Shown here in pieces: positions 18,708 through 46,283 of a DNA stretch of 64,000 bases (position 1 is the stretch's first letter; every line of letters begins with the position of its first letter). The notes under the pieces are model-generated. The model had not been told where the DNA came from. It did no database searches and saw nothing but the letters and a program-made list of their open reading frames with translations. This DNA is from Atribacter laminatus (GTDB lineage: Bacteria > Atribacterota > Atribacteria > Atribacterales > Atribacteraceae). The stretch is taken from contig NZ_CP065383.1 of assembly GCF_015775515.1 (NCBI RefSeq), forward strand, positions 1 to 64,000, written 5' to 3'. Position numbers and translations under genes: made by a program.

Positions 18708-19526
18708 TTATTTTATAGGAATAAAACCTTCTTCTGCAACAATCCTTTGCCCTTTATCACTGAAAATATAATTAATAAATTCTTGAGATACCCCTGCGGG
18801 AACCCTTGCTGTGTAGAGGAAAAGACCTCTGCTTAAAGGATAACTTCCGCTAATAACATTATCCCGGGTAGGTTCAACATTATCCAAAGTTAAGGCTTTT
18901 ACCTGGGGAGTAAGATAACCAAAACCAACATAACCAATAGCATTCAAATTCCTGGAGACTTCATCAAGGATAGGACGATTCGAAGTTAATCTTAAAACTT
19001 GAGGTGCCATTTCCTCGTTGTCTAAAATATGATCGTTAAAGATTTCAAAAGTTCCGGAATTGGTATCTCGGGAGATGGCAACTAAAGGTCGATCATATCC
19101 TCCCAAATCCTCCCAATTATGAACAAACCCGGTATAAATTTTTTTAAGCGTATTGCTATCAAGCCGGTCAATTGGGTTGTTTTTTGCATGAACGATGATA
19201 GCAATAGCATCATAAGCAATGGTATATTCTTGAACATCCAACCCCTTATCCTGGGCTTTTTGCAATTCATTTTCCTTTATTTTACGAGAAGACATGGCAA
19301 TATCAGCAATTTGATCTATAAGTGCTGCAATTCCCACTCCCGATCCTCCACCACTGATAGTAACTTCGTATTCCGGGTAATCATTCATAAATTCCTCAGC
19401 CATAATTTGTATAATGGGAAGCACGGTTGTCGAACCTTGAATATTCATTTTTTCTTTTGCCGAAGAAAAGCCTACTATAAGGAAAAAAAGTAAGATGATA
19501 ATCGAAAAAAGCCTCAATTTAAACAT
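18708..19526 (-). CDS. Phosphate-binding protein, PstS type (copy 1)
   Basis: The 272 residues include a signal peptide (hydrophobic 6-20, ending FSSAKEK), then the PstS fold: GSTTVLPI, SGGGSGVGIAALID, DIAMSSRKI, RDTNSGTFEIF and IGYVGFGY, motifs that wrap the phosphate. It binds phosphate outside the cell. No pstCAB is adjacent. The similar protein at 36847 has the same length and motifs. It is transcribed divergently from the sugar isomerase gene at 19638, with 111 bases between the starts. Confidence 0.9.
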   Translation of the reverse strand: MFKLRLFSIIILLFFLIVGFSSAKEKMNIQGSTTVLPIIQIMAEEFMNDYPEYEVTISGGGSGVGIAALIDQIADIAMSSRKIKENELQKAQDKGLDVQEYTIAYDAIAIIVHAKNNPIDRLDSNTLKKIYTGFVHNWEDLGGYDRPLVAISRDTNSGTFEIFNDHILDNEEMAPQVLRLTSNRPILDEVSRNLNAIGYVGFGYLTPQVKALTLDNVEPTRDNVISGSYPLSRGLFLYTARVPAGVSQEFINYIFSDKGQRIVAEEGFIPIK

Positions 19527-24930: not shown

Positions 24931-25707
24931 TTACCAGATAGTATATCCTCCGTCCATCACCACTACACTTCCGGTGACAAACGACGCAGCGTTTGAAGCC
25001 AGGAACACACAGGGTCCCTTCATTTCTTCTGGCTTTCCAAAACGACCAAAAGGAACCAGCTTGGTCCAGGCTTCTGCATATTCAGGGTACTGAAGGAGAA
25101 GATCAGCAACCAGTTGAGTCTTCATGTAACCAGGAGCGATGCTATTCACTCTTACTCCATAAGGAGCCCATTCTGCTGCCAAAGATTTGGTTAGCATGAT
25201 CACTCCACCCTTAGAAGTATTGTAGTGGGATTGGCATTGAGGAGTATTCACAATAAGGCCAGACATGGATGAGATGGTAATAATGCTCCCCTTCTTTTTC
25301 TCGATCATTCTTCTGCCAACTGATTGACAGCAAAAAAATGTTCCATTTAAATTAATATCCATTACCCGCTTCCAATCGGATTCGGGCATTTCTGCTGCCG
25401 GAACCCATTGACCCACACCGGCTGAAGTAACCAGGATGTCGATTTTCTGAAAATTTTTGATGACCTCATCCACCATATTTTCAACTAATGATTTTTGAGT
25501 CACATCGACATGAACAGCCATGGTTTCAATGCCATATTTCTCAAGGGATTGAGCAACTTTTTTGGCATTATCCAAATTTAAATCAGCTATAATCACATGG
25601 GCGCCGGCTTCAGCTAAACCAATCGCCATTTGTTCACCCAAACCTTGAGCGCCTCCGGTAACAACAGCTACTTCATCTTTTAGGCTAAAAAGTGATTGTG
25701 CAGTCAC
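24931..25707 (-). CDS. SDR-family sugar or polyol dehydrogenase
   Basis: The gene starts at GTG 7 bases after AGGAGG. A longer frame runs through the tRNA-Pro gene and is excluded. The 258 residues give a short-chain dehydrogenase: the NAD(P) motif TGGAQGLG at 17-24, NAG-equivalent TSAGVG at 94-99, catalytic Ser in TISSMSG (144-150), Tyr162 and Lys166 in YNTSK, and the C-terminal VNSIAPGYMKTQL. It is closest in form to gluconate 5-dehydrogenase-type enzymes. It is the first gene of the sugar importer cluster, 60 bases from the tRNA. Confidence 0.85.
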   Translation of the reverse strand: MTAQSLFSLKDEVAVVTGGAQGLGEQMAIGLAEAGAHVIIADLNLDNAKKVAQSLEKYGIETMAVHVDVTQKSLVENMVDEVIKNFQKIDILVTSAGVGQWVPAAEMPESDWKRVMDINLNGTFFCCQSVGRRMIEKKKGSIITISSMSGLIVNTPQCQSHYNTSKGGVIMLTKSLAAEWAPYGVRVNSIAPGYMKTQLVADLLLQYPEYAEAWTKLVPFGRFGKPEEMKGPCVFLASNAASFVTGSVVVMDGGYTIW

Positions 25708-25765
25708 AAATAAATCCTCCTTGTGTGGATGTGTTCTGTTTTTGGTTGCTTTAAAAATGAAGATT

Positions 25766-25842
25766 TGGTCGGGGAGAGCGGATTTGAACCGCCGACCACT
25801 CGCACCCCAAGCGAGTGCGCTCCCATGCTGCGCTACTCCCCG
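25766..25842 (-). tRNA. tRNA-Pro (anticodon GGG)
   Basis: The minus strand gives a full cloverleaf: acceptor CGGGGAG/CTCCCCG, D arm GCGCAGCATGGGAGCGC, anticodon stem ACTCGC/GCGAGT with loop TTGGGGT, and T arm GGCGGTTCAAATCCGC. The 3' CCA is encoded. It is upstream of, and may be cotranscribed with, the SDR gene. Confidence 0.95.
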
Positions 25843-25955
25843 ATACTCCATCCCCTCATTCGGCTATGTTATATCAAACCATTTACTCTGTCAACAGAAC
25901 AAATTGAATCATTTTAAGCTCTGAAAAGTGCCTAATTTTTCTCCTACAAATGATA

Positions 25956-26681
25956 TTAGAGGCTCTCGGTTGAGAGAAGGTCATAAAGAAATTTTTGAGG
26001 AAGTCCAGAGTTTGGATAAATTTTTTTGAGGGAGTCCAAATCATATTCGCACCTCATAAAATCAATCTTGGGAGTCTGGTTCTCCTCAATATTGAGAAGA
26101 ACCCATCCGGCTCTCCAGTCTCCATCTTTAGGGCGCCCTACGCTTCCATCATTGATAAACCAAATATCCTGGACCTTGCGAGAAAAAGGGCGATGGGTAT
26201 GTCCACAAACTAAAAGATCCGCCGATTCTTTTGACATCACATGGAGCAGGTTCTTATCGGATCGATCGGGAAAAAGATATTCATTGATTCGGCGTGGACT
26301 GCCATGAACAAAAAGCAATTGAAAGGATCCATAGGTTAATTGATAGCGGGGGAGAAGATTTCTTAAATATATTTTGTTCTCCGAGGTGGTCATTTTTTTT
26401 GTCCATTCAATAGAAATAGCTCCCAATGTTCTTTCTTCATCGGTTTTATACGCACACCCACAATCATCCAGGTCATTTCCAACTCCCTGGTCATAGTTTC
26501 CCATAATAACTGGGATATTGAGTGAGCTTATGATTGAGATAACCTCGTTTGGGAAAGGTGCGTATCCTACTAAATCACCTAAACATACCATTTCATCCGG
26601 TTGGTGATTTTCAATATCTTGCAATACGGCTTTCAGCGCCGGAAGATTCGAATGGATATCAGAGAAAACCGCAATTTTCAT
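25956..26681 (-). CDS. Calcineurin-like metallophosphoesterase (YfcE/MJ0936 type)
   Basis: The start is the ATG behind GGGAGGA, giving 241 residues. The five metallophosphoesterase motifs are present in order: FSDIH, GDLVGY, GNYDQ, VHGSP and GHTHRPF, coordinating two metals. The family hydrolyses phosphodiesters or phosphomonoesters, and the substrate here is unknown. It lies 106 bases downstream of the redox lipoprotein gene on the same strand. Confidence 0.88.
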   Translation of the reverse strand: MKIAVFSDIHSNLPALKAVLQDIENHQPDEMVCLGDLVGYAPFPNEVISIISSLNIPVIMGNYDQGVGNDLDDCGCAYKTDEERTLGAISIEWTKKMTTSENKIYLRNLLPRYQLTYGSFQLLFVHGSPRRINEYLFPDRSDKNLLHVMSKESADLLVCGHTHRPFSRKVQDIWFINDGSVGRPKDGDWRAGWVLLNIEENQTPKIDFMRCEYDLDSLKKIYPNSGLPQKFLYDLLSTESL

Positions 26682-26787: not shown

Positions 26788-27282
26788 TTATAAAATCTCA
26801 TTAATGTATTGTTCCAGTCCGCTTTCCGAAAGAGATTGAGCAATTTGACGAGTGATTTTCCCCTGACGATTGATAAAAACATTATGAGGGACACTCCACA
26901 CGCTATAAAGATCTGATACCGTTTCATCTTCATCATCCTGAAGAACCAGGTATTGAACCCCCTGAGATTGGACGAATTCAGCGATACCGGCCCGAATACC
27001 AATCCCGATAACCATTAGCTCTTCACTGTCAGCGTATTTTTGATGAACTGAATTCAAGTGAGGAACTTCACTTTTACAGGCAGGACAATTGGACATAAAA
27101 AAGCAAAGAACAATGGGCTTTCCTAAGTGATCACTCAAAGTAAAAGATTGACCGCTTAAATCCAACAGAGTAAAATCCTTTTCCATTCCCGGAGTTGGAG
27201 TCGGAGGATTGGGAATACAACCGGTAACCATAAATATCATAATTATACTACTCAGCAGAATAATAAAGAGTTGTCTTTTCAT
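26788..27282 (-). CDS. TlpA-like thioredoxin-fold lipoprotein
   Basis: The 164-residue protein is exported with a lipobox (MVTGC, Cys22) and has a thioredoxin/AhpC-TSA fold of TlpA type: FTLLDLSGQSFTLSDHLGKP, active site NCPAC with Cys66 and Cys69, and cis-Pro SVPHNVFI. It probably reduces disulfides on the outer face of the membrane, fed by the membrane electron carrier encoded at 27873. It lies 11 bases after the SNase-like gene. Confidence 0.88.
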   Translation of the reverse strand: MKRQLFIILLSSIIMIFMVTGCIPNPPTPTPGMEKDFTLLDLSGQSFTLSDHLGKPIVLCFFMSNCPACKSEVPHLNSVHQKYADSEELMVIGIGIRAGIAEFVQSQGVQYLVLQDDEDETVSDLYSVWSVPHNVFINRQGKITRQIAQSLSESGLEQYINEIL

Positions 27283-27872: not shown

Positions 27873-29528
27873 TTAGGACAGAGCACTTTGCCAAAGTAAA
27901 ATACTTAAAACAATAAACAAACATCCCATGGCTAACTTGGAAAAGAGAATGTTTTTCCGACCAAAATTGACCAAGGCTTTCGATTGACTGCCGTAGTAGA
28001 CCCCAAAAAAAACCACCAGCAGAGGAATAATAAAAAAGGTATTATAGAGGAGCAAAAAGAAAAAAGCTCGAAGTGAAGTGCTTTCTCTGGCTATATACAT
28101 AATAGTGGGTAGGTAAATTTGGCCGGTACAACCCGCCTCCAATAATGAGATGACAAAACCGCTGAAAATAGCAGCCACGATTAGTTTCTTTTCCGAGAAG
28201 CTTTTTTTTAAATATTTATTGATTTTAATTCGAAACGATTTGGGAAGTCCCATTGAAAATTCAGTTTCTTTTTTATCTTTTCGATATTGGATAGCATCTT
28301 TGATACTCAGAATGGCAAAGATGATAAGGACTGAAGCCATCACTCCATAAATCACTCGGGATATGATCTGATAAGCTGAAAGAGTTTGCCAAACGTGAAA
28401 AATCCCTAGTCCCATTAAGAAATAAGTAAAAAAAACTGAAAGACTGTACGCTATTCCAATCTCAAAAATTCGCCGACGAGTATGCCCGATAGCCATTAAT
28501 AAATTCACCATAAAAATGATGGTGGCAAAAGCACAGGGGTTGAGGCCATCTAAAACTCCCGCTCCTGCCACCACCCATGGGGTGAACCCTTTAAAACGAT
28601 TGAAAATAAGATCTTCGATCTTCCCAGTGAATTCAGTTTGTATTCCTTTTCTTTCTTCAGCAGAAAGAACCAGGGTTTTCTGTATTAATTCTTCGACTTG
28701 TTCGTTGATGGTTTTTTCATCTTCAGAAGCGATATACCCAGCATCGGAAAAAATCTCGACTGAGGTTTTATGCTCCACCTCCCAGGTTTCTTCCAAAAGT
28801 ACCATTTTTTCATAATGCGCTGCAATAACATAATCTAAATATACAACTTTGATTTGATCTTGATACTTTTCAAAGACAGGAGGAGTCACATCATTTTTTA
28901 AATGACGGCAGATCGGACAGCGTGAAGAAAAGAAGAAATAAATAACTGGTTTTTCGGGTATATCAATGTTTTGAATAAAGTTTTCGGATATTTCATCACG
29001 GATAATCCACTCGGTTTTTTCTTGAAATACTGTAAACTGATCTCTGATAAATTGAGCATTCTTTTCAGTTATAACCATGAGGATCTGATCCGGATTTTCT
29101 TTCTCAATATTTTCCCGAACCAAATTAACAAAAGATAAATCAGGTGAATCGTTCGTCCAATTCAATATTCCTAAAACATGTTCATTTTCTACATAAAAAA
29201 ATGAAGGTAAAACTCTTAAATCTCCTTCTTCTATGTTCCAATCGGAAACAACTACCAGAAAACCATCAATTTTCATTGAGGATAAGGTTTTCAAGTCTTC
29301 AAGGTAAGGAAGGATCACAACATTATCCGGTTTATCAAGAGCTGTTTTCCAGTTATCACTCGTTATAGAGTGCATACCCAGATCAATGAACAATTTAGGC
29401 TTTACTTGATCAAACTCATCTAATGGAATTCCCCGTCCAAAGACGGTGGTTTCAAAAGCATAGGCTATGTTCAACCCAAGTAAAAAAACCAATAAAAAAC
29501 CTAAAAGAAAAATGAAGCCCTTCTTCAT
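27873..29528 (-). CDS. DsbD-like membrane disulfide reductase (thioredoxin domain plus CcdA domain)
   Basis: The 551-residue protein starts with a signal sequence, then an extracytoplasmic region with a thioredoxin active site (SSRCPICRH, Cys204 and Cys207). A CcdA-type membrane domain follows, with GLNPCAF (Cys332) and LEAGCTGQIYLP (Cys467), the two cysteines that shuttle electrons across the membrane. It resembles DsbD in a reordered layout (Trx domain before membrane domain). It heads the 26.8-29.5 kb cluster and should supply electrons to the lipoprotein at 26788. Confidence 0.85.
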   Translation of the reverse strand: MKKGFIFLLGFLLVFLLGLNIAYAFETTVFGRGIPLDEFDQVKPKLFIDLGMHSITSDNWKTALDKPDNVVILPYLEDLKTLSSMKIDGFLVVVSDWNIEEGDLRVLPSFFYVENEHVLGILNWTNDSPDLSFVNLVRENIEKENPDQILMVITEKNAQFIRDQFTVFQEKTEWIIRDEISENFIQNIDIPEKPVIYFFFSSRCPICRHLKNDVTPPVFEKYQDQIKVVYLDYVIAAHYEKMVLLEETWEVEHKTSVEIFSDAGYIASEDEKTINEQVEELIQKTLVLSAEERKGIQTEFTGKIEDLIFNRFKGFTPWVVAGAGVLDGLNPCAFATIIFMVNLLMAIGHTRRRIFEIGIAYSLSVFFTYFLMGLGIFHVWQTLSAYQIISRVIYGVMASVLIIFAILSIKDAIQYRKDKKETEFSMGLPKSFRIKINKYLKKSFSEKKLIVAAIFSGFVISLLEAGCTGQIYLPTIMYIARESTSLRAFFFLLLYNTFFIIPLLVVFFGVYYGSQSKALVNFGRKNILFSKLAMGCLFIVLSILLWQSALS

Positions 29529-29686: not shown

Positions 29687-30091
29687 TTATGCACAGGGAA
29701 GTACCAACACTGGAATTTTTGACCGTTGGGTTACCGATTGAGCTGTGCTTCCAATAATCAGTTCACCGATGGTCCCCTTCTCTCTTTTGGGGATGACTAT
29801 AAGTGAAGCCTTTTCTTCCTCGGCAAAATGAACGATTTCAGGAGATGGATTACCGATGGTTACAACCGTTTTAGTAGATATGCCAAGATTTTCAAACCGT
29901 TTTCTTTCCTCTTTGAGCTTTGTTTCATCATGAATCCGGAATGCTTCCATGCTCATGCCAGCGGTTCGAAAATCGACTACATGAGCCAGGACCACCTCCT
30001 TCACCCCCAAACATCGAAATTCTTCCACACAGTGAATGAACTGCTTAGAAGGAGCTGAAAAATCGGTGGAAACTAAAACTTTCTCGAACAT
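29687..30091 (-). CDS. Universal stress protein (UspA family)
   Basis: The ATG at 30091 follows GAAGGTG at the right distance, giving 134 residues. The domain has the VLVSTDFS start and an ATP-binding GSTAQSVTQRSKIPVLV segment near the C-terminus. It is the last gene of the arsR-acr3-usp cluster, 14 bases after acr3. Its role may be stress signalling linked to arsenite or to membrane energisation. Confidence 0.85.
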   Translation of the reverse strand: MFEKVLVSTDFSAPSKQFIHCVEEFRCLGVKEVVLAHVVDFRTAGMSMEAFRIHDETKLKEERKRFENLGISTKTVVTIGNPSPEIVHFAEEEKASLIVIPKREKGTIGELIIGSTAQSVTQRSKIPVLVLPCA

Positions 30092-30105
30092 AGTTATCAC
30101 CTTCT

Positions 30106-31194
30106 TTATTGTTCATTTGAAGGCACAAAGGCTGGTTTAACAGCTTCTATAGCTTTCGGAAACCAGTGCTGGGTTCGGTTGGCAATATAGACCAAGCTGA
30201 GCATAATCGGCACTTCTACTAGAACTCCGACTACGGTTGCGAGAGCAGCACCAGAGCTCAACCCAAAGAGAGAAATAGCAACTGCAACAGCCAGTTCAAA
30301 AAAGTTACTGGCACCAATAAGACCCGCTGGGGCAGCTACTGCATATTCCAATTTCCATTTTTTAGCCCATAGATATCCAATAAAGAAAACAACGTAAGTC
30401 TGAATAGTCAGAGGAATGGCAATTAACAGGATGTGAAGGGGCTGTTTGAGAATAACATCACCCTGGTAAGAAAAAAGAAGAATTAAAGTGAGTAAAAGCC
30501 CGATGATAGTCCACGGTTTCAAACTGGGAAGAAAATTGGCTTCAAACCATTCCAATCCCTTTTTCTCAACGAGTTTTTTACGGGTGTAATAGCCTAAGGT
30601 GAGCGGTATCACCACAAACAACACCACCGAAAGGAGTACCGTATCATAAGGGATTTGTATTTGGGCTACACCAAGCTGAAAAATAACTATGGGAGCATAA
30701 AGAAACAGAATGATGATATCATTAATAGCCACCTGTACCAGAGTATAAGCCGGATCGCCTTTAGTTAGATAGCTCCAGACGAAGACCATAGCGGTACAAG
30801 GAGCTGCCCCAAGAAGGATAGCTCCGGCGACATATTGACTTCCCAGGACAGGACCAATGTAGGGAGCAAAGATATATTTTAAGAAAAGCCAAGAAAACAT
30901 GAGCATTGTAAAAGGTTTGATGGCCCAGTTAACAATAAGGGTTATAACCAGCCCTTTGGGTTTTTTTATTGATCTCTTGATACTGGCGAAATCGACCTGC
31001 AACATTATTGGATAAATCATCAGCCAAATGAGTATGGCAACTGGGATCGATACCCGACTGACTTCTAGTTTGGACATTGCCTTAGGAAAAACGGGTATCC
31101 ACTGCCCTATCATAACCCCTAATAGAATACAGAGAGCAACCCACAGAGTAAGATATTTTTCAAAAATACCTAAAGAACGGTCCTTTTCTTTCAT
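30106..31194 (-). CDS. acr3: Arsenite efflux transporter Acr3
   Basis: This 362-residue transporter has ten predicted spans. LLGAAPCTAMVFVWS contains the conserved substrate Cys (Cys133), and the C-terminal ASNFFELAVAVAISLFG is typical of the family. It extrudes arsenite using the membrane potential. It is regulated by the ArsR encoded just upstream (60-base gap). The arsenic role is firm from family knowledge. Confidence 0.92.
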   Translation of the reverse strand: MKEKDRSLGIFEKYLTLWVALCILLGVMIGQWIPVFPKAMSKLEVSRVSIPVAILIWLMIYPIMLQVDFASIKRSIKKPKGLVITLIVNWAIKPFTMLMFSWLFLKYIFAPYIGPVLGSQYVAGAILLGAAPCTAMVFVWSYLTKGDPAYTLVQVAINDIIILFLYAPIVIFQLGVAQIQIPYDTVLLSVVLFVVIPLTLGYYTRKKLVEKKGLEWFEANFLPSLKPWTIIGLLLTLILLFSYQGDVILKQPLHILLIAIPLTIQTYVVFFIGYLWAKKWKLEYAVAAPAGLIGASNFFELAVAVAISLFGLSSGAALATVVGVLVEVPIMLSLVYIANRTQHWFPKAIEAVKPAFVPSNEQ

Positions 31195-31254: not shown

Positions 31255-31623
31255 TTAATCGATTGCTTTGCTCAATTTTTTTAATTGTTCATAGCTCATT
31301 CCATTCTTTTTGTGCTCAATGTATTTTTTTTGGTCTTTTTTGAAGGGATTTATTTGGTTCGACTGTCCATTGAAAATATTATTGAGAAATGGGTATTTTC
31401 TGATAGTTTCCCTATCAACCCGATAATTAACCCATTGTGATTTTTTCTCTCGTTGGATAAGACTGACGCTAAATAGCTTATTAAGATGTCTTGATACATT
31501 TGATTGGCCCATTCCTAAGATGGTTTCAATTTCACAAACACATAACTCTTCTTGGTTTAAAAGGTGCAATATTCGAAGACGATTTTCATCGGCAATCGCT
31601 TTTAAAATCTGAACTAACTTCAC
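31255..31623 (-). CDS. arsR: ArsR-family arsenite-responsive repressor
   Basis: The gene starts at GTG behind GGAGGA and encodes 122 residues. The winged helix includes LCVCEIE (Cys28, Cys30), matching the arsenite-binding box, followed by recognition helix SNVSRHLNKL. It binds As(III), dissociates from DNA and de-represses acr3. A 38-base perfect palindrome 14-51 bases upstream is the presumed operator. Confidence 0.9.
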   Translation of the reverse strand: MKLVQILKAIADENRLRILHLLNQEELCVCEIETILGMGQSNVSRHLNKLFSVSLIQREKKSQWVNYRVDRETIRKYPFLNNIFNGQSNQINPFKKDQKKYIEHKKNGMSYEQLKKLSKAID

Positions 31624-31636
31624 TTTTTTCCTCCAA

Positions 31637-31674
31637 TTTTTATATGATTATATTTAAATATAATCATATAAAAA
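31637..31674 (-). promoter_or_regulatory. Operator palindrome of arsR
   Basis: Positions 31637-31674 form a 38-base perfect inverted repeat, AT-rich, containing ATGATTATATTT on one arm. It includes a perfect -10 box TATAAT (minus strand, 31647-31652). A related half-site (TAATCATATAA) recurs at 31712-31722. Confidence 0.6.
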
Positions 31675-31736: not shown

Positions 31737-32333
31737 TTAACTGAGATCAAAAATATCTGTGTCCTTTAGAATCTGCACCTTGCCCACAAGAATCATTTTC
31801 TCGCCTGTCAAATTTTCCCCATAACGATCTATGAGTTGACTGGTAGCAATATTTTGCATTTTTGGGTCACAGACTACCTCAATCAGTATTTTACCCTTCT
31901 CATTGGGAAAACCTGGAGTGATTCGAAAGGAGGCAGTAAAAGAACCATTCTGGACTTCAATGGTTTTGTGGAGGTTGAAGGTTGTTTCAGGATTGGTTTT
32001 GAGTGTTACAACGGGACGAGTTCCGGAAGGTAAATCGGTAATTCCATTTATTCGGTACCGGTCATCTTTAATAGTAAATTGCGTGATGTTCAGAACTGAA
32101 TAATCGACCATTGTAATTTTTGACGAATTGGAACTTTTTTTGATTCCAGAAGGGGAGTTCGTATCCGGAGATGATGGGTTTGATGGAATGGTCGGTTGGC
32201 TGATATCGGGAATGGAATTATCGACTGGCGGAGTTTGGCCGCAACTACAGGCTTTGTCTTCTGCGTTACTCCAGGCGCTGAATATAAAAATACCGACAAA
32301 AAGAATAAGAACAATCAAGATCGTTTTTTTCAC
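31737..32333 (-). CDS. Secreted protein with proline/serine linker, unknown function
   Basis: The 198 residues have a signal peptide (about 1-24), a short Cys motif just after it (KACSCGQ), a low-complexity Pro/Ser linker (residues 35-70) and a beta-rich domain of about 120 residues. No known domain is recognised. The linker suggests a surface-anchored or pilin-like domain held away from the membrane. It is the last gene of the redox/permease operon, 21 bases after ccdA. Confidence 0.6.
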   Translation of the reverse strand: MKKTILIVLILFVGIFIFSAWSNAEDKACSCGQTPPVDNSIPDISQPTIPSNPSSPDTNSPSGIKKSSNSSKITMVDYSVLNITQFTIKDDRYRINGITDLPSGTRPVVTLKTNPETTFNLHKTIEVQNGSFTASFRITPGFPNEKGKILIEVVCDPKMQNIATSQLIDRYGENLTGEKMILVGKVQILKDTDIFDLS

Positions 32334-32354
32334 TCTTTATCTCTCCTTAATATA

Positions 32355-33056
32355 TTAGGGTGCAGTATAAATAAGATATAAACCACCAAAAAGAACTAAA
32401 ACTCCACAGACTTTCTTTACGATATTCGCTGCCATTGAGGTTTCATTCCAGCGCAGATATTTTTGAACACTTTGAGTAAAGGTTCCGGCTAAAACAATCA
32501 CCGAACAATGCCCTATTCCATACGTAATGAGAAGCCCAGCGGCCAGCAAGGGAGTGGTTTCTCCCACCCGGAATGTTGCTCCCAAAACCGGTGCCATATA
32601 AGCAAAGGTACAGGGTCCCAAGGCTATCCCAAAGAAAAAACCGAGGAGAAAGGCTGCCATTGTTCCCGTTCCCCTGGTTTTTTTAACTTGAGCTGGTCCT
32701 CCAAAATTGAGGGGGATGACATCGAGCAGGGAAAGGCCAACAATGAAAAAGATGACGGCAACAATATAATTTCCATATCCCCCAATATCTCCTGCCATTC
32801 GCCCCAAGCTGGCTGTGATAATACCGATGATAGCAATAGTGGAAAGAATGCCGAGGGAGAACCAGGTGCTAATCCAAAACGCCCGATTCAGGGTTAATTT
32901 CCCCTGCTGAGTGATAAAGCCGACAATAAGGGGAATACTAGCGAGATGGCAGGGACTTAAAAGAATGCTTAATATTCCCCAAGTCAATGCTGCAATCAGG
33001 GCAATCGTTGCACTCCCTTCAATGGCGCTGGTCAGGGTAGTAAACAGTTCACCCAT
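32355..33056 (-). CDS. ccdA: CcdA-type membrane electron carrier
   Basis: The 233-residue protein has six predicted spans and the two redox cysteines of CcdA: LLSPCHLA (Cys36) and LGPCTFAY (Cys149). It moves electrons from cytoplasmic thioredoxin to extracytoplasmic thiol proteins. It lies three bases after the thioredoxin gene at 33060, so the two are co-expressed and are likely partners. Conventional targets are cytochrome c maturation or sporulation proteins. None is visible here, and the operon context suggests other substrates. Confidence 0.88.
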   Translation of the reverse strand: MGELFTTLTSAIEGSATIALIAALTWGILSILLSPCHLASIPLIVGFITQQGKLTLNRAFWISTWFSLGILSTIAIIGIITASLGRMAGDIGGYGNYIVAVIFFIVGLSLLDVIPLNFGGPAQVKKTRGTGTMAAFLLGFFFGIALGPCTFAYMAPVLGATFRVGETTPLLAAGLLITYGIGHCSVIVLAGTFTQSVQKYLRWNETSMAANIVKKVCGVLVLFGGLYLIYTAP

Positions 33057-33059
33057 GGG

Positions 33060-33989
33060 TTATCTGACCCCCAGCTCGGTAAGCTTATTAAGAATCTCTT
33101 CTTTCGAGAAAAATCCGGTATGGCGAAAAACTTCTTTGCCTTCTCGGTCGAAAAAAACCTGGGTTGGAATTCCCGAGATTTGGTAGCGAGCGGAAAGAAC
33201 TTGATAAATCCGGACATCGGTGAATAGGATGGTGCATTTTCCCTTCAGGCTGGTTTGAAGCTCTTCAAGAATTGGTGCCATCATATCACAGGGAACACAG
33301 CCACTGGCACCAAAATCAATTATGACTGGAAGTCCACTCCGGCGCGCTTGATCCACCGGATTATCAAAGGCAGTTTCTGATTGTCCCTTTACCCAGATAG
33401 TATTGACTTCAATTTCTAGTTTTTGGCTTAAATTTCCAACATAGGTATTAATAAACTCTTGTTTCTTCTGGCCAACGAGATACTGAACAACAAACTCGCG
33501 GACATCACTAAATGGAGTATCTCCAAACATGTCATAATTGAGATCATAAAAAGCTTGGGCTTCTTGGTCAGAAACAGTTAGGTCTGGAGGTACCAAACTT
33601 TCCAGATAGAGTCGAAAGAGTTCATCCTCGTTGGGGTTATTCGATCGGATATTCTGGTTTGACATCCATTTTTTTGCTTCCTGAAGAAGAATAGGATAAA
33701 GAGCAGCTTGCTCCAGAACGTAGAAGGCGTTTCTTTTTAACTGTTCCTTGAGTTCAGGTTCTGATTGAGCAATTTTTTCATCAACTTGTTTTTGATTGAT
33801 GGTGATGTCTCCAGCTTTCAAAAGAATATCCTCAGGGAGGGTTGTTAATCGTGCATATCGGAGGGGACCTGAGCTCAGACCCAGGTAGACCTCTTCGATA
33901 GTAGGACCTTTTTCTTCAGAGAAAACCGTCAATGAAAAAATAAAACAGCAGGCTATAACCAATATAAGAATTCCTGGAATCTTGTTCAT
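33060..33989 (-). CDS. Exported thioredoxin with N-terminal SurA-like region
   Basis: The 309-residue protein has a signal peptide (1-24), a helical region of about 170 residues resembling the SurA/PrsA N-terminal chaperone-type domain (KAGDITINQKQVDEKI, PPDLTVSDQEAQAFYD), and a C-terminal thioredoxin domain with active site GCVPCDMM (Cys231, Cys234) and cis-Pro GIPTQVFF. The fusion is unusual. It probably carries electrons received from CcdA to a substrate bound by the helical domain. The stop abuts ccdA. Confidence 0.75.
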   Translation of the reverse strand: MNKIPGILILVIACCFIFSLTVFSEEKGPTIEEVYLGLSSGPLRYARLTTLPEDILLKAGDITINQKQVDEKIAQSEPELKEQLKRNAFYVLEQAALYPILLQEAKKWMSNQNIRSNNPNEDELFRLYLESLVPPDLTVSDQEAQAFYDLNYDMFGDTPFSDVREFVVQYLVGQKKQEFINTYVGNLSQKLEIEVNTIWVKGQSETAFDNPVDQARRSGLPVIIDFGASGCVPCDMMAPILEELQTSLKGKCTILFTDVRIYQVLSARYQISGIPTQVFFDREGKEVFRHTGFFSKEEILNKLTELGVR

Positions 33990-34451
33990 TTAATCCTCCT
34001 TATTTAAACTCATCTTTAATTCTTCAAATTTTTTAAGGATTTGGTCTTTGGGGATAAAGCCGATGTGCCGAAACACTTCTTTTCCTTGAGCATCAAAAAT
34101 AATTTGAGTTGGGATTGACGATATCGCATACTGCTGAGATTGTTTTGGATCTTTCCAGACATCAATAAAATCAACCTGAAGCTGCCCGGAATATTCACGG
34201 CGGAGTTCTTCGAGAATCGGCTGCATCATTTTACAAGGAACGCATTGATCGGCTCCCAATTCCAAGAAACGCGGTAGATTTGTCTCATTCGCTCCTGAAG
34301 CCTGGATTAATTCTTCGGCTAGTTCAGTTTCAATGGTTTGCATGGTTTGAGTTTTTTGACCTATGGCACGATTTTCCTTCAGATAAAAGGTTACGATCAC
34401 CGCTAAAATAAGAAGAGCGACAATAGTCATCTTCCCAAAAAGTGATTTCAT
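33990..34451 (-). CDS. Membrane-anchored thioredoxin
   Basis: The 153-residue protein has an N-terminal anchor (7-24) and a thioredoxin domain with active site QCVPCKMM (Cys70, Cys73) and SIPTQIIF. It overlaps the preceding gene by 4 bases (ATGA). It is a second extracytoplasmic thioredoxin beside that at 33060, with near-identical C-terminal helices (EGKEVFRHTGF against QGKEVFRHIGF), so the two domains appear duplicated. Confidence 0.88.
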   Translation of the reverse strand: MKSLFGKMTIVALLILAVIVTFYLKENRAIGQKTQTMQTIETELAEELIQASGANETNLPRFLELGADQCVPCKMMQPILEELRREYSGQLQVDFIDVWKDPKQSQQYAISSIPTQIIFDAQGKEVFRHIGFIPKDQILKKFEELKMSLNKED

Positions 34452-34792
34452 AGTTTCCCCTCCTCAGTTTTAAACTCAATGGTTGCTGAAGCAGGAAGAG
34501 CCAGATGAGTGACAACTTGCATGACTTTGTAAATACCGGATGGAACAATACAACCACTGCAGCATCCTTTTAGGGTTTTTTGTACTGCTTGATGGATCAT
34601 GCCCTTAAATCCTTGTCCAATTTCGGTATAGGCATCAACTTCAGGGATAAATTCATTCAACATCTGAATCGTTTCACAGGGACTTATGATTTTCAGTTGA
34701 ACCATTTGCTCATCGCTTGATTGAGCTTCTACCATCGTAATAAACCCACATATTCCAGCGTTGATTTTTGCCTGAATTTTTTGCATATTCAT
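34448..34792 (-). CDS. Cys-rich conserved protein, unknown
   Basis: This protein of 114 residues overlaps the ferredoxin gene upstream and the thioredoxin gene downstream by 4 bases each (ATGA). It has cysteines in three groups (AGICGF, ISPCE and KGCCSGCIVP), a set suited to binding a metal, a metalloid or an Fe-S cluster. No signal peptide is present, so it should be cytoplasmic. I do not recognise the family. The translational coupling implies a stoichiometric role with its neighbours. Confidence 0.7.
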   Translation of the reverse strand: MNMQKIQAKINAGICGFITMVEAQSSDEQMVQLKIISPCETIQMLNEFIPEVDAYTEIGQGFKGMIHQAVQKTLKGCCSGCIVPSGIYKVMQVVTHLALPASATIEFKTEEGKL

Positions 34793-35037
34793 CCCCGGTA
34801 CTGTCTTAAAATTGAAAGTGGGGGAAAATGAATTGCTTCGCTAGAGCACTGAGGATAACAGCCGGTACACCCCACAATACATTCATAGGGATGAGCTACG
34901 ATGGGTCGACTTTCGGCTTGATTCCATTCGTAAACTCCATGAGAACAGAATTTATAACAGGTTTGGCATCCGGTACACTGCTCAAAATCTACTGAGGGAT
35001 ACCAGGGAATTTCTTCTCGTTTTGCTTTGAACTGCAT
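34789..35037 (-). CDS. Two-cluster 4Fe-4S ferredoxin
   Basis: The ATG at 35037 follows AGGGAG by 6 bases, and an upstream GTG is less well placed. The 82-residue protein binds two clusters: Cys21-x2-Cys24-x2-Cys27-x3-Cys31 and Cys53-x3-Cys57-x2-Cys60-x3-Cys64. The wider Cys53/57 spacing is atypical for simple ferredoxins. It is a cytoplasmic electron carrier, placed between a mini-thioredoxin and the Cys-rich protein in the operon, so it probably supplies electrons to the thiol chain. Confidence 0.82.
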   Translation of the reverse strand: MQFKAKREEIPWYPSVDFEQCTGCQTCYKFCSHGVYEWNQAESRPIVAHPYECIVGCTGCYPQCSSEAIHFPPLSILRQYRG

Positions 35038-35053
35038 AACAATCTCCCTCACC

Positions 35054-35290
35054 CTATTGTAATTGAAACCATTCTTTAAACTGAGCTTCAGTGGGAGTTT
35101 TTCCCTCGCTCTTTTTTACTCCGTCGATGAATACCGCTGGGGGCATAAGAACCTTGGCTTCCAAAAGTTTTTCGAGGTCGTCAATGTATTCAATTTCAGC
35201 TTCAAGGTTGTTTTTCTCGATAAAGGATTTGAGATTTTGATAGAGAAGGTTGCATTTTTTGCAACCAGCGCCTAAGACTTGAACTTTCAT
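35054..35290 (-). CDS. Mini-thioredoxin (TM0996/MTH895 family)
   Basis: The ATG at 35290 lies 8 bases after AGGAG, giving 78 residues. The short redox-active disulfide protein has the GAGCKKCNLL active site (Cys10, Cys13) and MPPAVFIDG cis-Pro. Small proteins of this type frequently sit beside permeases of the kind at 35306. It is probably the cytoplasmic thiol partner of that permease or of the Fe-S protein. Confidence 0.85.
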   Translation of the reverse strand: MKVQVLGAGCKKCNLLYQNLKSFIEKNNLEAEIEYIDDLEKLLEAKVLMPPAVFIDGVKKSEGKTPTEAQFKEWFQLQ

Positions 35291-35305
35291 TGTATTCACT
35301 CCTTT

Positions 35306-36319
35306 TTAAAAGATGAGTTCATAGACTGAACCGGCGAGAGCAGAAAACAGAATGACTAAGATGATATAGGTCATTCCTCGTTTTAAACCCATGATCCGGT
35401 TGATGAGGATCATACTGGGGAGGCTTAAAGCCGGACCGGCAAGGAGAAAAGCGATAGCCGAACCGGAACTCATTCCCATTTCGATGAGACTCCTGGTAAT
35501 CGGGACTTCGGTGAGAGTGCTGAAATAGAGAATAGCACTAATAACAGAAGAGAGGATATTCGATATAAAGCTTTCTGCTCCAAACAATTTCACAATGACC
35601 GAAGCTGGCACGAAGACTTTAAGCGCAGATGCAACAAATACTCCTACAATCAGAATAGGAAAGATTAGTTTAAAGAGACTCCAGGATTCTCGGTACCAGT
35701 TTAAACGTTGCTCTTTTGTAAATAAGAGATACCCTATCCCGAACGCTGCCACCATTAAAATTCCTTTATATAAGTTGGGACCTACCATATAAATTGCCAC
35801 TAAAACGAATATGACCAGCAAGCCTTTCCAGGGAATGCTGGCTTTCGGAGGATTCTCGGTCATGTCTTGGGTGGTCTCACGGACCCGGGCTTTTCCAAAG
35901 AGGAAATCCATAATCAACCCAACTCCAAAAGCTAAAATCACCGCTGAAAGTGACCGAGCCCAACCGATGGTTCCCAACATGGCCGCTGAAATAAAGATGG
36001 CAGCAGTATTGATGGCTGGTCCGGAATAGAGAAAGCTGGTGGCTGGACCGATTCCTGCTCCAATTTTGTACATGGAGGTAAACATCGGGAGGATCGAACA
36101 GGAACAGACCGCTAAGATGGCACCGGCAACTGAGGCAACGCTGATGGCGATCCATTTATTAGCACCCGGGCCAAAAAATCGCAAAATGCTTTCCTTATCA
36201 AGTAAGGCTGCAATTGCTCCTGAAATCAGAAAAGCCGGCATGATTCCCAGCAGAAGATGCAAGGGATCGAGATAGGTTAGAATGGTGTTGAGTCCTTCCC
36301 GTAAAGCAGTTTCCCACAT
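35306..36319 (-). CDS. Permease of the DUF318/ArsP type
   Basis: The 337-residue membrane protein has about eight spans in two halves. Each half has a conserved core: SGAIAALLDKESILRFFGPG and VCSCSILP (Cys72, Cys74) in the first, and KLFGAESFISNILSSVISAI and FSTLTEVPITRSLIE in the second. This family includes ArsP, which exports trivalent organoarsenicals. Substrates of other members are unknown. The CSC motif suggests thiol-dependent metalloid handling. An ArsR gene adjoins it directly upstream. Confidence 0.8.
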   Translation of the reverse strand: MWETALREGLNTILTYLDPLHLLLGIMPAFLISGAIAALLDKESILRFFGPGANKWIAISVASVAGAILAVCSCSILPMFTSMYKIGAGIGPATSFLYSGPAINTAAIFISAAMLGTIGWARSLSAVILAFGVGLIMDFLFGKARVRETTQDMTENPPKASIPWKGLLVIFVLVAIYMVGPNLYKGILMVAAFGIGYLLFTKEQRLNWYRESWSLFKLIFPILIVGVFVASALKVFVPASVIVKLFGAESFISNILSSVISAILYFSTLTEVPITRSLIEMGMSSGSAIAFLLAGPALSLPSMILINRIMGLKRGMTYIILVILFSALAGSVYELIF

Positions 36320-36604
36320 TTAAACCCGCTCCCTTTCATTCTTAACCATATCTTCAGCCAATTCAATGATTTCCATGATGCGTTCATCCTTGATATGAAG
36401 AATTTTCATGACTCCCCTCTGTTCAATCTCAACCAGACCAGCTAAAACCAGCTCCCGGACATGACGGGAAATCGTGGTTTTGTCGATGGGCATGCTTTTT
36501 TCAAACTCACACTGACAAAGTGGTTCCTTTGCAATCTTCTTTAATATCTCAATTCGCCAGGGAGAAGAAAGGGCTTTGAATACCTGATCAATCATACCTA
36601 TCAC
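36320..36604 (-). CDS. ArsR-family metalloid-type repressor (second)
   Basis: The 94-residue winged-helix protein has LCQCEFE (Cys30, Cys32) at the helix 3 metal site and recognition helix TTISRHVREL. It heads the redox/permease operon, ending where the permease gene starts. Its likely operator is the triple TTACAATA repeat. The ligand could be a trivalent metalloid, but with only this Cys pair the identity is unknown. Confidence 0.85.
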   Translation of the reverse strand: MIGMIDQVFKALSSPWRIEILKKIAKEPLCQCEFEKSMPIDKTTISRHVRELVLAGLVEIEQRGVMKILHIKDERIMEIIELAEDMVKNERERV

Positions 36605-36629
36605 CTGCTTATTTCTTTATTGCATTATT

Positions 36630-36653
36630 TTACAATATTACAATATTACAATA
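36630..36653 (-). promoter_or_regulatory. Triple TTACAATA operator repeat
   Basis: Three perfect tandem copies of TTACAATA (plus strand) lie 26-49 bases upstream of the arsR start. They overlap the -10 and spacer of the promoter at 36635-36663. It is a probable operator for the ArsR protein. Confidence 0.5.
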
Positions 36654-36846: not shown

Positions 36847-37665
36847 CTATTTAATACGGATGAAACCTTCTTCTTCAACAATAGTCTGACCTTCTTCGCT
36901 AAAGAAGTAATCAATAAAATCCTTGGTGACTCCCTGGGGAATATCGGGAGTATACAGATAAAGCCCACGACTGATGGAATAGCTCCCGTTAAGAGCATTC
37001 TCCTTGGTAGGTTCAACTCCGTCTAAAAGAAGCCCCTTGACTTGATCAGTTACATATCCCAGCCCAACATACCCAATAGCTTCGGGATTATTCCCAACTT
37101 CATCCAGAATTGCCCGATTAGAGGCAAGCATTAAAACAGTTGGTGCCAATTGATCTTTTTTCAAGATATGTTCATTGAATACTTCGAAGGTTCCAGAGTT
37201 GGTATCACGGGAAATAACCACTATCGGTTTATCTTCTCCGTTGAGGTCTTTCCAGTTGGTGATTGCTCCGGTATAGATCTGCTTCAGGGTGTGACTGTCG
37301 ATTTGGTTCATCATGGTATTGGCAGGGCTCACAATGACCGTGATGGCATCCTTGGCTATTTCAAATTCCTGGACAGAGAGACCTTTGGCAACAGCTTTAT
37401 CCAATTCTTCGGCTTTAATCTTTCTTGATGACATGGCAACGTTAGCTATTTTGTCAATTAGGGCAGCAATACCTACTCCAGATCCACCACCACTTACTGT
37501 AATATCGACTTCGGGATTCTGATTCATGAACTCTTCAGCAATAATTTGCATAATGGGAAGAACAGTGGTTGAGCCAGAAACATTCAACTTTTCTGCTGAA
37601 AAAGCAGAAAAAGCAAAAGAAAAAACCGCCAGAAATATAAAAATAAACCTAATCATTTTTTTCAT
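36847..37665 (-). CDS. Phosphate-binding protein, PstS type (copy 2)
   Basis: The 272-residue paralog of the protein at 18708 has a signal peptide (hydrophobic 6-22, ending FSAEKLN), GSTTVLPIMQI, SGGGSGVGIAALID, VAMSSRKI, RDTNSGTFEVF and IGYVGLGY. It is a single gene with no pst permeases around it. The upstream 300 bases carry no gene but have an AT-rich region with TTTAACAATTT-like repeats that could be PhoP binding sites. Confidence 0.9.
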   Translation of the reverse strand: MKKMIRFIFIFLAVFSFAFSAFSAEKLNVSGSTTVLPIMQIIAEEFMNQNPEVDITVSGGGSGVGIAALIDKIANVAMSSRKIKAEELDKAVAKGLSVQEFEIAKDAITVIVSPANTMMNQIDSHTLKQIYTGAITNWKDLNGEDKPIVVISRDTNSGTFEVFNEHILKKDQLAPTVLMLASNRAILDEVGNNPEAIGYVGLGYVTDQVKGLLLDGVEPTKENALNGSYSISRGLYLYTPDIPQGVTKDFIDYFFSEEGQTIVEEEGFIRIK

Positions 37666-44771: not shown

Positions 44772-46283
44772 CTCAACTTTCGCAGTTCAATAATAGCACT
44801 TTTTCTCTCAACCATGCTGGAAGACTATTTACAAAATAGATGAGTAGCTCTTTGACTTTTTCTTCTGAAAGGACAAGAATCTGTTTGATGGTCGTCTTCA
44901 GGAGCTCAAGAAGAAGAGTGAGTGCTTCCATAAGAGTGATATCCTGAATTTCATCATAGCAGGCATAGAAAAGCTCGCCAAAGGTTCGGGGATCGGTGTT
45001 TCTCCGGGCAATAACCGCGAGCATGATATAGCGGATAAAGACGATACTGGTATGGGATACCAGAGCATCATAGGATCGAACCTGAAATTCCCGAGTGAGT
45101 TTCAAGACCGATTTCACCATCTTGAAGAAAACCTCGATATCCCAGCGTTTCCCATAGAGGGTGACGATCTCGTCTTCAGAAAGAGACAGATCAGTTGAAA
45201 GCAGTGCCAACCATTGAGATTTTTGTTTTTCACTTCGGACAAAGACAATCCGAGCTAAAAGTGGTTTCCCAGTGAGATTGAGATTCACGACACCCGATCC
45301 AATGATATTGCCGTGTGGTCTTTTCTGAATTCTGGTGAAAAGAGAGGAAAGAGAAAGAACTTTTCCACCAAAAGAATAGTAAATTTTTGGGGTGTTTTTG
45401 AGCATGCACACCACTGATAATCCGCGAAGAGCACATTTGCGGATGAGGGCTGGAAAACTGAACCAACTATCAAAGAGAATAGTTGAGACCAAAGGACAGT
45501 GTTTCAAGGCTCCATCCAGGAGGTTGAAGAAGACATCTGGAGCTTTTTCTTGGGATTCTTTCCGAAGACGAGCTCTTTTGTTTCGTCCATCAACGGAGGC
45601 ATCCATGGGACAGAGCTGGTTTTCTTTTTGGTGAGAACTTAACAATGAAAAAGCAAAGGGAATGAATGTAGCACCATCGGTGAGTCCTAAAGTGAGCATT
45701 CTGAAACCCCGACTGAACCGTCCTTGGGCGTGATCATAGAATCGAGAGAGCCCTTCAACTTTCAAGCTCCGAGGCCGTTCATAGGGGGAATCATCCACCA
45801 CCCAGGTGTAGCGTTTCAAACTGGTAAAAGGAAGGAGCGCTTCAGAGACTACTTTGGTACTCAAAAGAAAGAGCAATTTTCGCCAGCTCCCACTGGTCTT
45901 GTGGAGGAAACGGTAAAGAGTGTCTTTCTTTCCTTGGAAAAGGGGATGTCGAGATTGGAGAAGACCAGCAACGTTTTTCTGAGTAAAGACTAGGAGAAAG
46001 ATCATCTGAAAGACGTCTTTGACTGGGAACCCTTTCTTTTTGTTCATATGGCATTTTCGAAACAGTTGGTTCACTTTAAACTCCTTCATAAAGGAGGAAA
46101 ACATGGGTAACAAGGTCCTTTCATTTTTCAAATTTTCTGGTAGGATAGTCATGAAGACACCTCTCTCTTTGTGGTGATTGGTTTTTTTCCTTAAGTCAAT
46201 TCTACCAGAAAGGAGGGGTGTTTTCATTAAAAAACCCTTTAAAATCAAGGTTTTTCAGCATTTATTTTAGTGCGAAAGTTGAG
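44772..46283 (-). mobile_element. IS4-family insertion sequence, copy 2 (1512 bp)
   Basis: This copy has the same length and terminal inverted repeats as copy 1, but is inverted. About a dozen base differences cluster within the interval equivalent to 16171-16327 of copy 1. The remainder that I compared is identical. Confidence 0.93.
44773..46152 (-). CDS. IS4-family DDE transposase (copy 2)
   Basis: The 459-residue protein is encoded on the minus strand from the ATG equivalent to that of copy 1. It carries the same DDE motifs (VVDDSPYERP, FDSWFSF, YGKRWDIEVFFK). It differs from copy 1 at five positions in a 40-residue stretch (for example SSHQKEN for SSHRKEN). It probably remains active. 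The element separates the other IS from trpB2. Confidence 0.92.
   Translation of the reverse strand: MTILPENLKNERTLLPMFSSFMKEFKVNQLFRKCHMNKKKGFPVKDVFQMIFLLVFTQKNVAGLLQSRHPLFQGKKDTLYRFLHKTSGSWRKLLFLLSTKVVSEALLPFTSLKRYTWVVDDSPYERPRSLKVEGLSRFYDHAQGRFSRGFRMLTLGLTDGATFIPFAFSLLSSHQKENQLCPMDASVDGRNKRARLRKESQEKAPDVFFNLLDGALKHCPLVSTILFDSWFSFPALIRKCALRGLSVVCMLKNTPKIYYSFGGKVLSLSSLFTRIQKRPHGNIIGSGVVNLNLTGKPLLARIVFVRSEKQKSQWLALLSTDLSLSEDEIVTLYGKRWDIEVFFKMVKSVLKLTREFQVRSYDALVSHTSIVFIRYIMLAVIARRNTDPRTFGELFYACYDEIQDITLMEALTLLLELLKTTIKQILVLSEEKVKELLIYFVNSLPAWLREKVLLLNCES

Follow-up and report, generated by a model that had tools for sequence, protein, structure and literature searches.

We have analyzed a stretch of 64,000 nucleotides of the Atribacter laminatus genome (assembly GCF_015775515.1, contig NZ_CP065383.1, positions 1 to 64,000; the whole stretch is referred to as the window) and found a nine-gene unit of redox and permease genes that, as far as the sequence can tell, is very probably the upstream half of an arsenic resistance island, normally one long operon. 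The operon is of a broadly known type with one unrecognised component, a small protein of the family DUF6951 that belongs to a distinct branch of its family, the CC branch. Its predicted shape resembles IscU, and in this branch, which is linked to arsenic genes, a His has been replaced by a Cys; both features together make the CC branch a strong candidate for a novel protein that handles arsenic. To the best overall explanation, an arsenic operon in which DUF6951 serves as a carrier of As(III), we would give a probability of about 0.6.

The unit had been described in an earlier note on this DNA, and the nine open reading frames (ORFs) on the minus strand, at 31737-36604, were confirmed together with their families. 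In the direction of transcription they code for an ArsR repressor, an ArsP-type permease, a mini-thioredoxin, a ferredoxin, DUF6951, two exported thioredoxins, CcdA and a secreted linker protein, with intergenic gaps of 0, 6, 1, -4, -4, 0, 3 and 21 bases. The overlaps of 4 bases said to exist between several genes are real and exactly two, one of them between the ferredoxin and DUF6951 genes. The latter codes for what had been seen there as a Cys-rich protein without being identified, and it is the really new component. The nine-gene span was too short, the island continuing downstream at 31623-25956 with a second ArsR, ACR3 and a Car1-like gene.

The same gene set was found in relatives. Two genomes of the same genus carry ArsR, permease, mini-thioredoxin, ferredoxin, DUF6951, the two thioredoxins, (CcdA), linker protein, ACR3 and metallophosphoesterase, without the second ArsR; in one of them the permease and DUF6951 are on separate contigs, the ends of which fit the order. 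ACR3 begins within ~90 nt after the linker gene in the genomes G001 and G004, and since it directly follows the ninth gene in two genomes of the genus we consider it part of the operon. In G001, genes for ArsR and ArsM (NF008823, 315 bits, above the cut-off) adjoin ACR3 downstream. In G007, which belongs to another genus of this family, ArsR, ArsD (NF033727) and ArsA (TIGR04291, 786 bits) come after the two-domain thioredoxin and CcdA. A single ORF of this genome (L120:2325-2936, minus strand) codes for ArsD followed by a weak AhpD-like domain. The unit is present in three of the six genomes of the genus, and such a patchy presence is what is expected of a resistance island. Scattering of the genes in relatives had been named in the earlier note as an argument against the unit; the patchiness and a modular makeup are indeed there, but the parts sit in arsenic neighbourhoods.

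Similar situations were found in other phyla. Four Armatimonadota loci (L252, L253, L259 and L263) have ArsR, permease, mini-thioredoxin, DUF6951, the thioredoxins Trx153 and Trx309 and CcdA in the order of the window, followed in L252, L253 and L263 by ACR3. Most of the series is present in L256 and L265 from the same phylum, and L251 has also the ferredoxin, second ArsR, ACR3 and universal stress protein (Usp), as in the window. A gene for a DGC protein (PF08859 in the L014 homologue) often precedes DUF6951. A spirochaete (L012) carries ArsR, ACR3, permease, mini-thioredoxin, ferredoxin (47%) and DUF6951, the ferredoxin directly before DUF6951, and in L007, L011 and L013 DUF6951 directly adjoins ArsM. 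This sharing of gene order across phyla is not due to chance. The survey of genomes that had been proposed bears out both a single functional unit, the order of which is kept in the genus and in another phylum, and its metalloid character, in which thiol and redox genes are coupled to a permease.

ACR3 within the operon, the ArsM and ArsD/ArsA neighbours and the CxC pair in both ArsR proteins indicate arsenic as the substrate class with high probability. The island might instead serve mainly against another thiophilic metal (Cu, Zn, Hg, Cd) or general disulfide stress, the arsenic genes being neighbours because resistance islands cluster. CcdA and thioredoxin do have general roles, and the permease gives scores with the models of the SO_0444 Cu/Zn efflux protein (NF033936, 114.1 vs. 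300 bits) and of SaoE (NF040736, 111.3 vs. 325 bits), both far below the cut-off. However, the As-sensing pair is found in both repressors, ACR3 belongs to the same unit in G001 and G004, and arsenic-specific genes recur beside the unit in other phyla, so that we regard this explanation as most improbable. The CSC motif that had been pointed out in the permease is real, but it is invariant in 15/15 related permeases and hence a feature of the family, nothing special to this protein. Going by its family, the permease may be an exporter of methylarsenite, MAs(III), or other trivalent organoarsenicals.

The most distinctive feature of the unit is DUF6951. We collected 171 relatives from the genome collection by a motif scan (N[AP]G[IV]CGF and C.VP..I) and tblastn, of which 80 were kept. 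The query alignment (A4) included artificial rows varying elsewhere, and the choice of motifs may bias the relatives seen; tblastn with the actual protein of the window confirmed every match of the scan, and later searches with the family PF22263 are free of this bias. Three cysteines (C15, C39 and C81) are invariant in 82/82 aligned sequences. Three residues before C81 there is a Cys in 15/15 members of one branch and a His in 67/67 other relatives. In this CC branch the motif is GCCxxCxVP, with an extra Cys (Cys77) before the swapped-in Cys78. The branch is a single clade (SH-aLRT 99, and 95 after removing the motif columns) that includes Atribacterota, Armatimonadota, Spirochaetota, Latescibacterota, Lentisphaerota, Planctomycetota and one deltaproteobacterial genome. 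Arsenic genes were found in the fetched surroundings of 9/13 CC-branch loci vs. 3/67 of the others (Fisher p = 6e-7). A second set, obtained by searching 291 Armatimonadota and 393 Spirochaetota genomes for PF22263 with unchanged thresholds, gave arsenic genes near 16/21 Cys-type vs. 2/14 His-type loci (p = 5e-4), the loci being related in both sets so that the p-values are, strictly, too small. In the second set nearly all Cys-type loci come from Armatimonadota and the His-type ones largely from Spirochaetota, and phylum is therefore partly confounded with type.

The AlphaFold2 model of the window DUF6951 (pLDDT 93.3) found IscU structures as its best Foldseek matches in the PDB (TM 0.46-0.57 and E 0.016-0.09, with a probability of 0.96-1.00 for most of the top twelve), and SufE/CsdE, of the same fold, came next in the list. 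As a control we modelled the IscU domain (pLDDT 94.6; ligands C35, C62 and C106) of the window genome, which encodes its own NifU/IscU. C15 is in the loop that leads to strand 2, at three residues from it, and C39 immediately precedes the helix that follows strand 3, the same distances as for C35 and C62 of IscU; C81 is two residues before the last long helix, and C106 is near the start of the last helix. The spacings between the ligand cysteines are 24 and 42 in DUF6951 vs. 25-27 and 44 in IscU. An IscU-like three-Cys site is therefore supported by the model. Membership in the IscU family is not: 48 DUF6951 members gave no match to PF01592 (IscU/NifU-N) at E up to 10, and with no significant profile link the argument for homology is the predicted model itself. 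Searches by sequence of solved structures, and of plasmids and IMG/VR, gave no DUF6951 relative, and the window protein had no match in NCBIfam, hence none to ArsD (NF033727).

With such a fold and three equivalent Cys positions, DUF6951 could be an Fe-S scaffold or repair protein that holds a transient cluster on the three Cys, takes electrons from the ferredoxin and either mends clusters damaged by As(III) or matures a single enzyme of the pathway. In the ISC pathway a ferredoxin is the partner of IscU, and a 2[4Fe-4S] ferredoxin gene overlaps DUF6951 in the window and directly precedes it in L012. Several observations argue against this explanation, which we consider unlikely: the DUF6951 loci have no cysteine desulfurase, HscA/HscB or cluster carrier; the Asp that follows the first ligand in IscU (C35-G-D37 in the control) is replaced by Phe (C15-G-F17); the genome already has a NifU/IscU of its own; and the adjacent ferredoxin is absent from most CC-branch loci. 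Loci of the phylum that lack DUF6951 also have members of this ferredoxin family, next to permease and mini-thioredoxin or to ArsR and thioredoxin-like genes, so that an exclusive link between both proteins is not established. The link from the ferredoxin to the external thiol relay, proposed in the earlier note, gets no support from the gene arrangement, in which the ferredoxin gene goes instead with DUF6951, and it is cytoplasmic thioredoxin that normally feeds relays of the CcdA type.

One member of the CC branch may be a selenoprotein. In the Armatimonadota locus L248 (genome G267) there is a Cys-type gene, intact in all other respects, in which precisely the codon of C39 is an in-frame UGA (L248:3060-3062, minus strand); a hairpin can form after it, and the genome has a tRNA-Sec above the gathering score (72 bits). 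An ArsM-like gene is directly downstream and ArsP, ACR3 and ArsR-like genes are upstream. This is a candidate and a single case, for which a sequencing error is possible. Another in-frame UGA, in L279, was rejected as Sec; it adjoins an inserted palindromic stretch and is off any conserved Cys. As a separate observation, a gene for a DF family (seleno)protein (NF049942; L008:7579-7977, plus strand) is located directly before a Cys-type DUF6951 gene, with no ars genes nearby. A selenocysteine in place of Cys39 would fit a reactive, redox-active residue, and SufE/CsdE are among the Foldseek matches, as could be expected if DUF6951 were a SufE/IscU-like persulfide acceptor giving sulfide for thiolated arsenicals that are then extruded. 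But the loci lack genes for a desulfurase or a rhodanese, and SufE has one catalytic Cys against the three invariant ones of DUF6951. We think that a persulfide acceptor is very unlikely.

Coming back to DUF6951 as an arsenic carrier, we infer from the observed gene content and order, arsenic neighbourhood, predicted fold, conserved cysteines and His-to-Cys switch how transport, redox and binding steps might proceed. The full operon would run arsR, arsP, mini-thioredoxin, ferredoxin, DUF6951, two thioredoxins, ccdA, linker, acr3 and the car1-like gene. Ligands of the As(III) type would free ArsR from its operator, the Car1-like enzyme would reduce As(V), ACR3 would extrude As(III), and the ArsP-type permease, perhaps served by the mini-thioredoxin from the cytoplasmic side, would extrude trivalent arsenicals, probably methylated or other organic ones. 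CcdA would relay electrons from thiols through the membrane to the exported thioredoxins with CVPC, and these would maintain extracytoplasmic thiols in a reduced, arsenic-free state. The site formed by Cys15, Cys39 and Cys81, made all-Cys by the change of His to Cys78 and the added Cys77, may bind As(III), or a cluster that is exchanged against As(III), and DUF6951 would hand As(III) over to the permease, to ACR3 or, where present, to ArsM, as ArsD does for ArsA. The product of the overlapping ferredoxin gene would be its likely redox partner in two lineages. To As(III) binding and transfer by DUF6951 we would concede not quite an even chance. More tentative still is a wider proposal, that the CC branch is a new, unnamed arsenic resistance family built on an IscU-fold scaffold, whose Cys3His site turned all-Cys (with Sec in at least one member), that binds trivalent arsenic or an arsenic-exchangeable cluster and delivers what it has bound to ArsM, ArsP or ACR3, certain lineages having a ferredoxin dedicated to the task.

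Several results weigh against an arsenic operon with DUF6951 as carrier. Besides the kinship of the loci and the permease scores with other models already given, 4/13 and 5/21 of the CC-branch loci in the two sets are without an ars gene in the surroundings that were retrieved, whereas such genes do occur near a few His-type loci. The pairing of ferredoxin and DUF6951 is found in few lineages only. The fold matches have E values of 0.016 or worse, and hhalign of DUF6951 with IscU gave a probability of 0.2%, i.e., no link at the profile level. Finally, the window genome has no ArsM above the cut-off; a methylated substrate would then need to come from other organisms, and what is likely to be transported here is As(III), or else methylarsenite that neighbours produce.

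The features of the island are collected in Table 1.

Table 1. Genes and predicted regulatory sites of the arsenic island in the window, in order of transcription.
Feature	Position	Strand	Matches and remarks
Operator-like box upstream of first ArsR gene	36617-36644		ATTGTAATATTGTAAAATAATGCAATAA on minus strand; inverted-repeat character; predicted site
ArsR/SmtB repressor	36320-36604	-	NF033788, 58.8 bits, above cut-off; C30-x-C32 (PLCQCEFE), ELCVC-type As(III)/Sb(III)-sensing pair of ArsR
ArsP-type (DUF318) permease	35306-36319	-	PF03773 (ArsP_1), 221.8 bits vs. gathering score 32.3; CSC motif C72-S-C74
Mini-thioredoxin, MTH895/ArsE family ("redox-active disulfide protein 2")	35054-35299	-	TIGR00412, 74.9 bits, above cut-off; C13-K-K-C16
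2[4Fe-4S] ferredoxin	34789-35052	-	Fer4 families; eight Cys in two clusters, second C-x3-C-x2-C-x3-C
DUF6951 protein, CC branch	34448-34792	-	PF22263, 94.5 bits, above cut-off; C15, C39, C77, C78, C81; predicted IscU/SufE fold
Membrane-anchored exported thioredoxin	33990-34451	-	PF00085, above cut-off; CVPC at 70-73; N-terminal hydrophobic anchor
Exported two-domain protein	33060-33989	-	N-terminal domain of ~180 residues plus CVPC thioredoxin (PF00085 at 204-304, above cut-off)
CcdA/DsbD-TM thiol-electron carrier	32355-33056	-	PF02683 (DsbD_TM), 44.2 bits, above cut-off; membrane Cys36 and Cys149
Secreted linker protein	31737-32333	-	C29-x-C31 after signal peptide; 86% identity in G001 and G004, where ACR3 is the next gene
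Perfect 38-bp palindrome (two 19-nt arms) before second ArsR gene	31637-31674		Probable predicted operator of second ArsR
Second ArsR	31255-31623	-	NF033788, 89.3 bits; ELCVCE motif (C28, C30)
ACR3 arsenite efflux transporter	30106-31194	-	TIGR00832, 413.4 bits vs. cut-off 282.8
Usp	29687-30100	-	PF00582, 84.2 bits; Usp also adjoins ACR3 in Armatimonadota L240, L251, L264
Exported thioredoxin-like domain fused to DsbD-like membrane domain	27873-29528	-	Weak PF13462 and PF02683 matches
TlpA/ResA-like exported thiol-disulfide oxidoreductase	26788-27282	-	NF002854, 76.1 bits, below cut-off 170
Car1-like YfcE-type metallophosphoesterase, candidate arsenate reductase	25956-26681	-	TIGR00040; Cys74, Cys76

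Most of the box before the first ArsR gene is conserved in a set of six sequences, which come from genomes of the genus and from another family of the order. An Rfam search of the island found no RNA regulator, its sole match being a tRNA at the island edge. This tRNA gene (25769-25842, minus strand) overlaps the mechanically extended start of an SDR ORF (24931-25851), the true start of which must therefore be further downstream. Two near-identical, inverted transposase genes (15554-17029, plus strand, and 44773-46248, minus strand) flank the region that bears the island. Besides, paralogous PstS-like phosphate-binding proteins are coded at 18708-19526 and 36847-37665, of which the latter immediately precedes the arsenic operon; the pair is relevant to arsenic in that phosphate uptake bears on arsenate entry.

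Regarding the single genes, the Cys residues of the metallophosphoesterase have the same numbering as those reported to be essential in the arsenate reductase Car1 (PMC12124457), which makes it a candidate arsenate reductase. Car1-like genes come directly after ACR3 in G001 and L006, and after permease and mini-thioredoxin in G018 and G021. Kin of the thioredoxin-DsbD fusion adjoin ArsR, Usp and ferredoxin in G003, and a nuclease-like protein gene is located between this fusion and the TlpA-like gene. The ferredoxin has no Cys beyond the eight cluster ligands and is below the cut-off of the HgcB model NF040864 (31.7 vs. 99 bits); its kin adjoin permease and mini-thioredoxin in the spirochaete L012 and in Atribacterota L126. 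In the 309-aa two-domain thioredoxin the N-terminal domain (residues 24-205) is conserved, with 39% identity in Armatimonadota L011, and gave no match in Pfam, which thus lent no support to a SurA-like nature. CcdA is far below the cut-off of the ArsG model NF040495 (51.7 vs. 200 bits), and the linker protein had no family match among the profile models searched. The family names HgcB, SaoE, SO_0444, ArsG and TsoR were all rejected for scores below the cut-off, and so was a defence system, for which there were weak Csa3 matches to the ArsR protein only.

Arsenic operons are among the best studied resistance operons, and yet DUF6951 accompanies them in uncultured anaerobes of several phyla. It bears a sharp His to Cys-Cys signature, and its predicted fold is suggestive of soft-metal chemistry. 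If this is true, there would be a new ars gene family and a testable chemistry for DUF6951, which is found also in Methanosarcina and many anaerobes. A fold of Fe-S scaffolds would have been recruited for metalloid detoxification, tying scaffold evolution to arsenic.

The earlier note did not recognise the combination as a described system. However, the core of permease, mini-thioredoxin, thioredoxin and CcdA in ars operons was reported in 2010 (PMC2963123), and the idea of coupling redox proteins to a permease is therefore not new. The window holds the genes by which such operons are recognised (arsR plus an arsenic transporter, CcdA, thioredoxin and the TIGR00412 protein), and ArsP is common in ars operons. 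The 2010 operons differ in that neither DUF6951 nor a ferredoxin is named in them, and the window has a pair of exported thioredoxins with CVPC, one of which carries a new N-terminal domain. A full-text literature search and comparison of papers on ars operons found no mention of DUF6951 in them. The anaerobic arsM operons of P. dentum IIB4 and T. petrolearius IIB7 (PMC12124457) share ArsR, ArsP, ACR3, a thioredoxin-family protein and a Car1-like metallophosphoesterase with the window, and DUF6951 and ferredoxin are not among their listed genes.

ArsP, cited as an exporter of trivalent organoarsenicals and methylarsenite (Chen et al. 2015, in PMC9213503 and PMC9144182), is likewise a PF03773 permease in an ars operon under ArsR, whereas here no ArsM above the cut-off accompanies it and the substrate is a predicted one. 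The arsEFG system, as cited in PMC9144182 (Chen, Zhang and Rosen 2019), has in common with the unit the ArsE-family mini-thioredoxin (TIGR00412) and a DsbD_TM membrane protein with a weak ArsG score, but the window CcdA is far below the ArsG cut-off and the permease is of the ArsP type. The SAO/Tso selenoprotein operons of Haft and co-workers, going by their description in PMC13188914, resemble the unit in their ArsR-type regulators, DUF318-like permease SaoE, thioredoxin/DsbD pieces and organometal theme; their models are below cut-off here, and the window has no selenoprotein, the one candidate Sec member of the CC branch being found elsewhere. As for DUF6951 itself, it lacks sequence similarity to IscU/NifU-N and SufE, the Asp after C-G and the N-terminal helix, but shares with them the predicted fold, the three invariant Cys in equivalent topology and the C-G after the first ligand. 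From the ArsD metallochaperone it differs in its predicted fold, in having no ArsD match and in loci that are mostly without ArsA, and it resembles ArsD, as a functional analogy, in being a small three-thiol cytoplasmic protein beside arsenic transporters.

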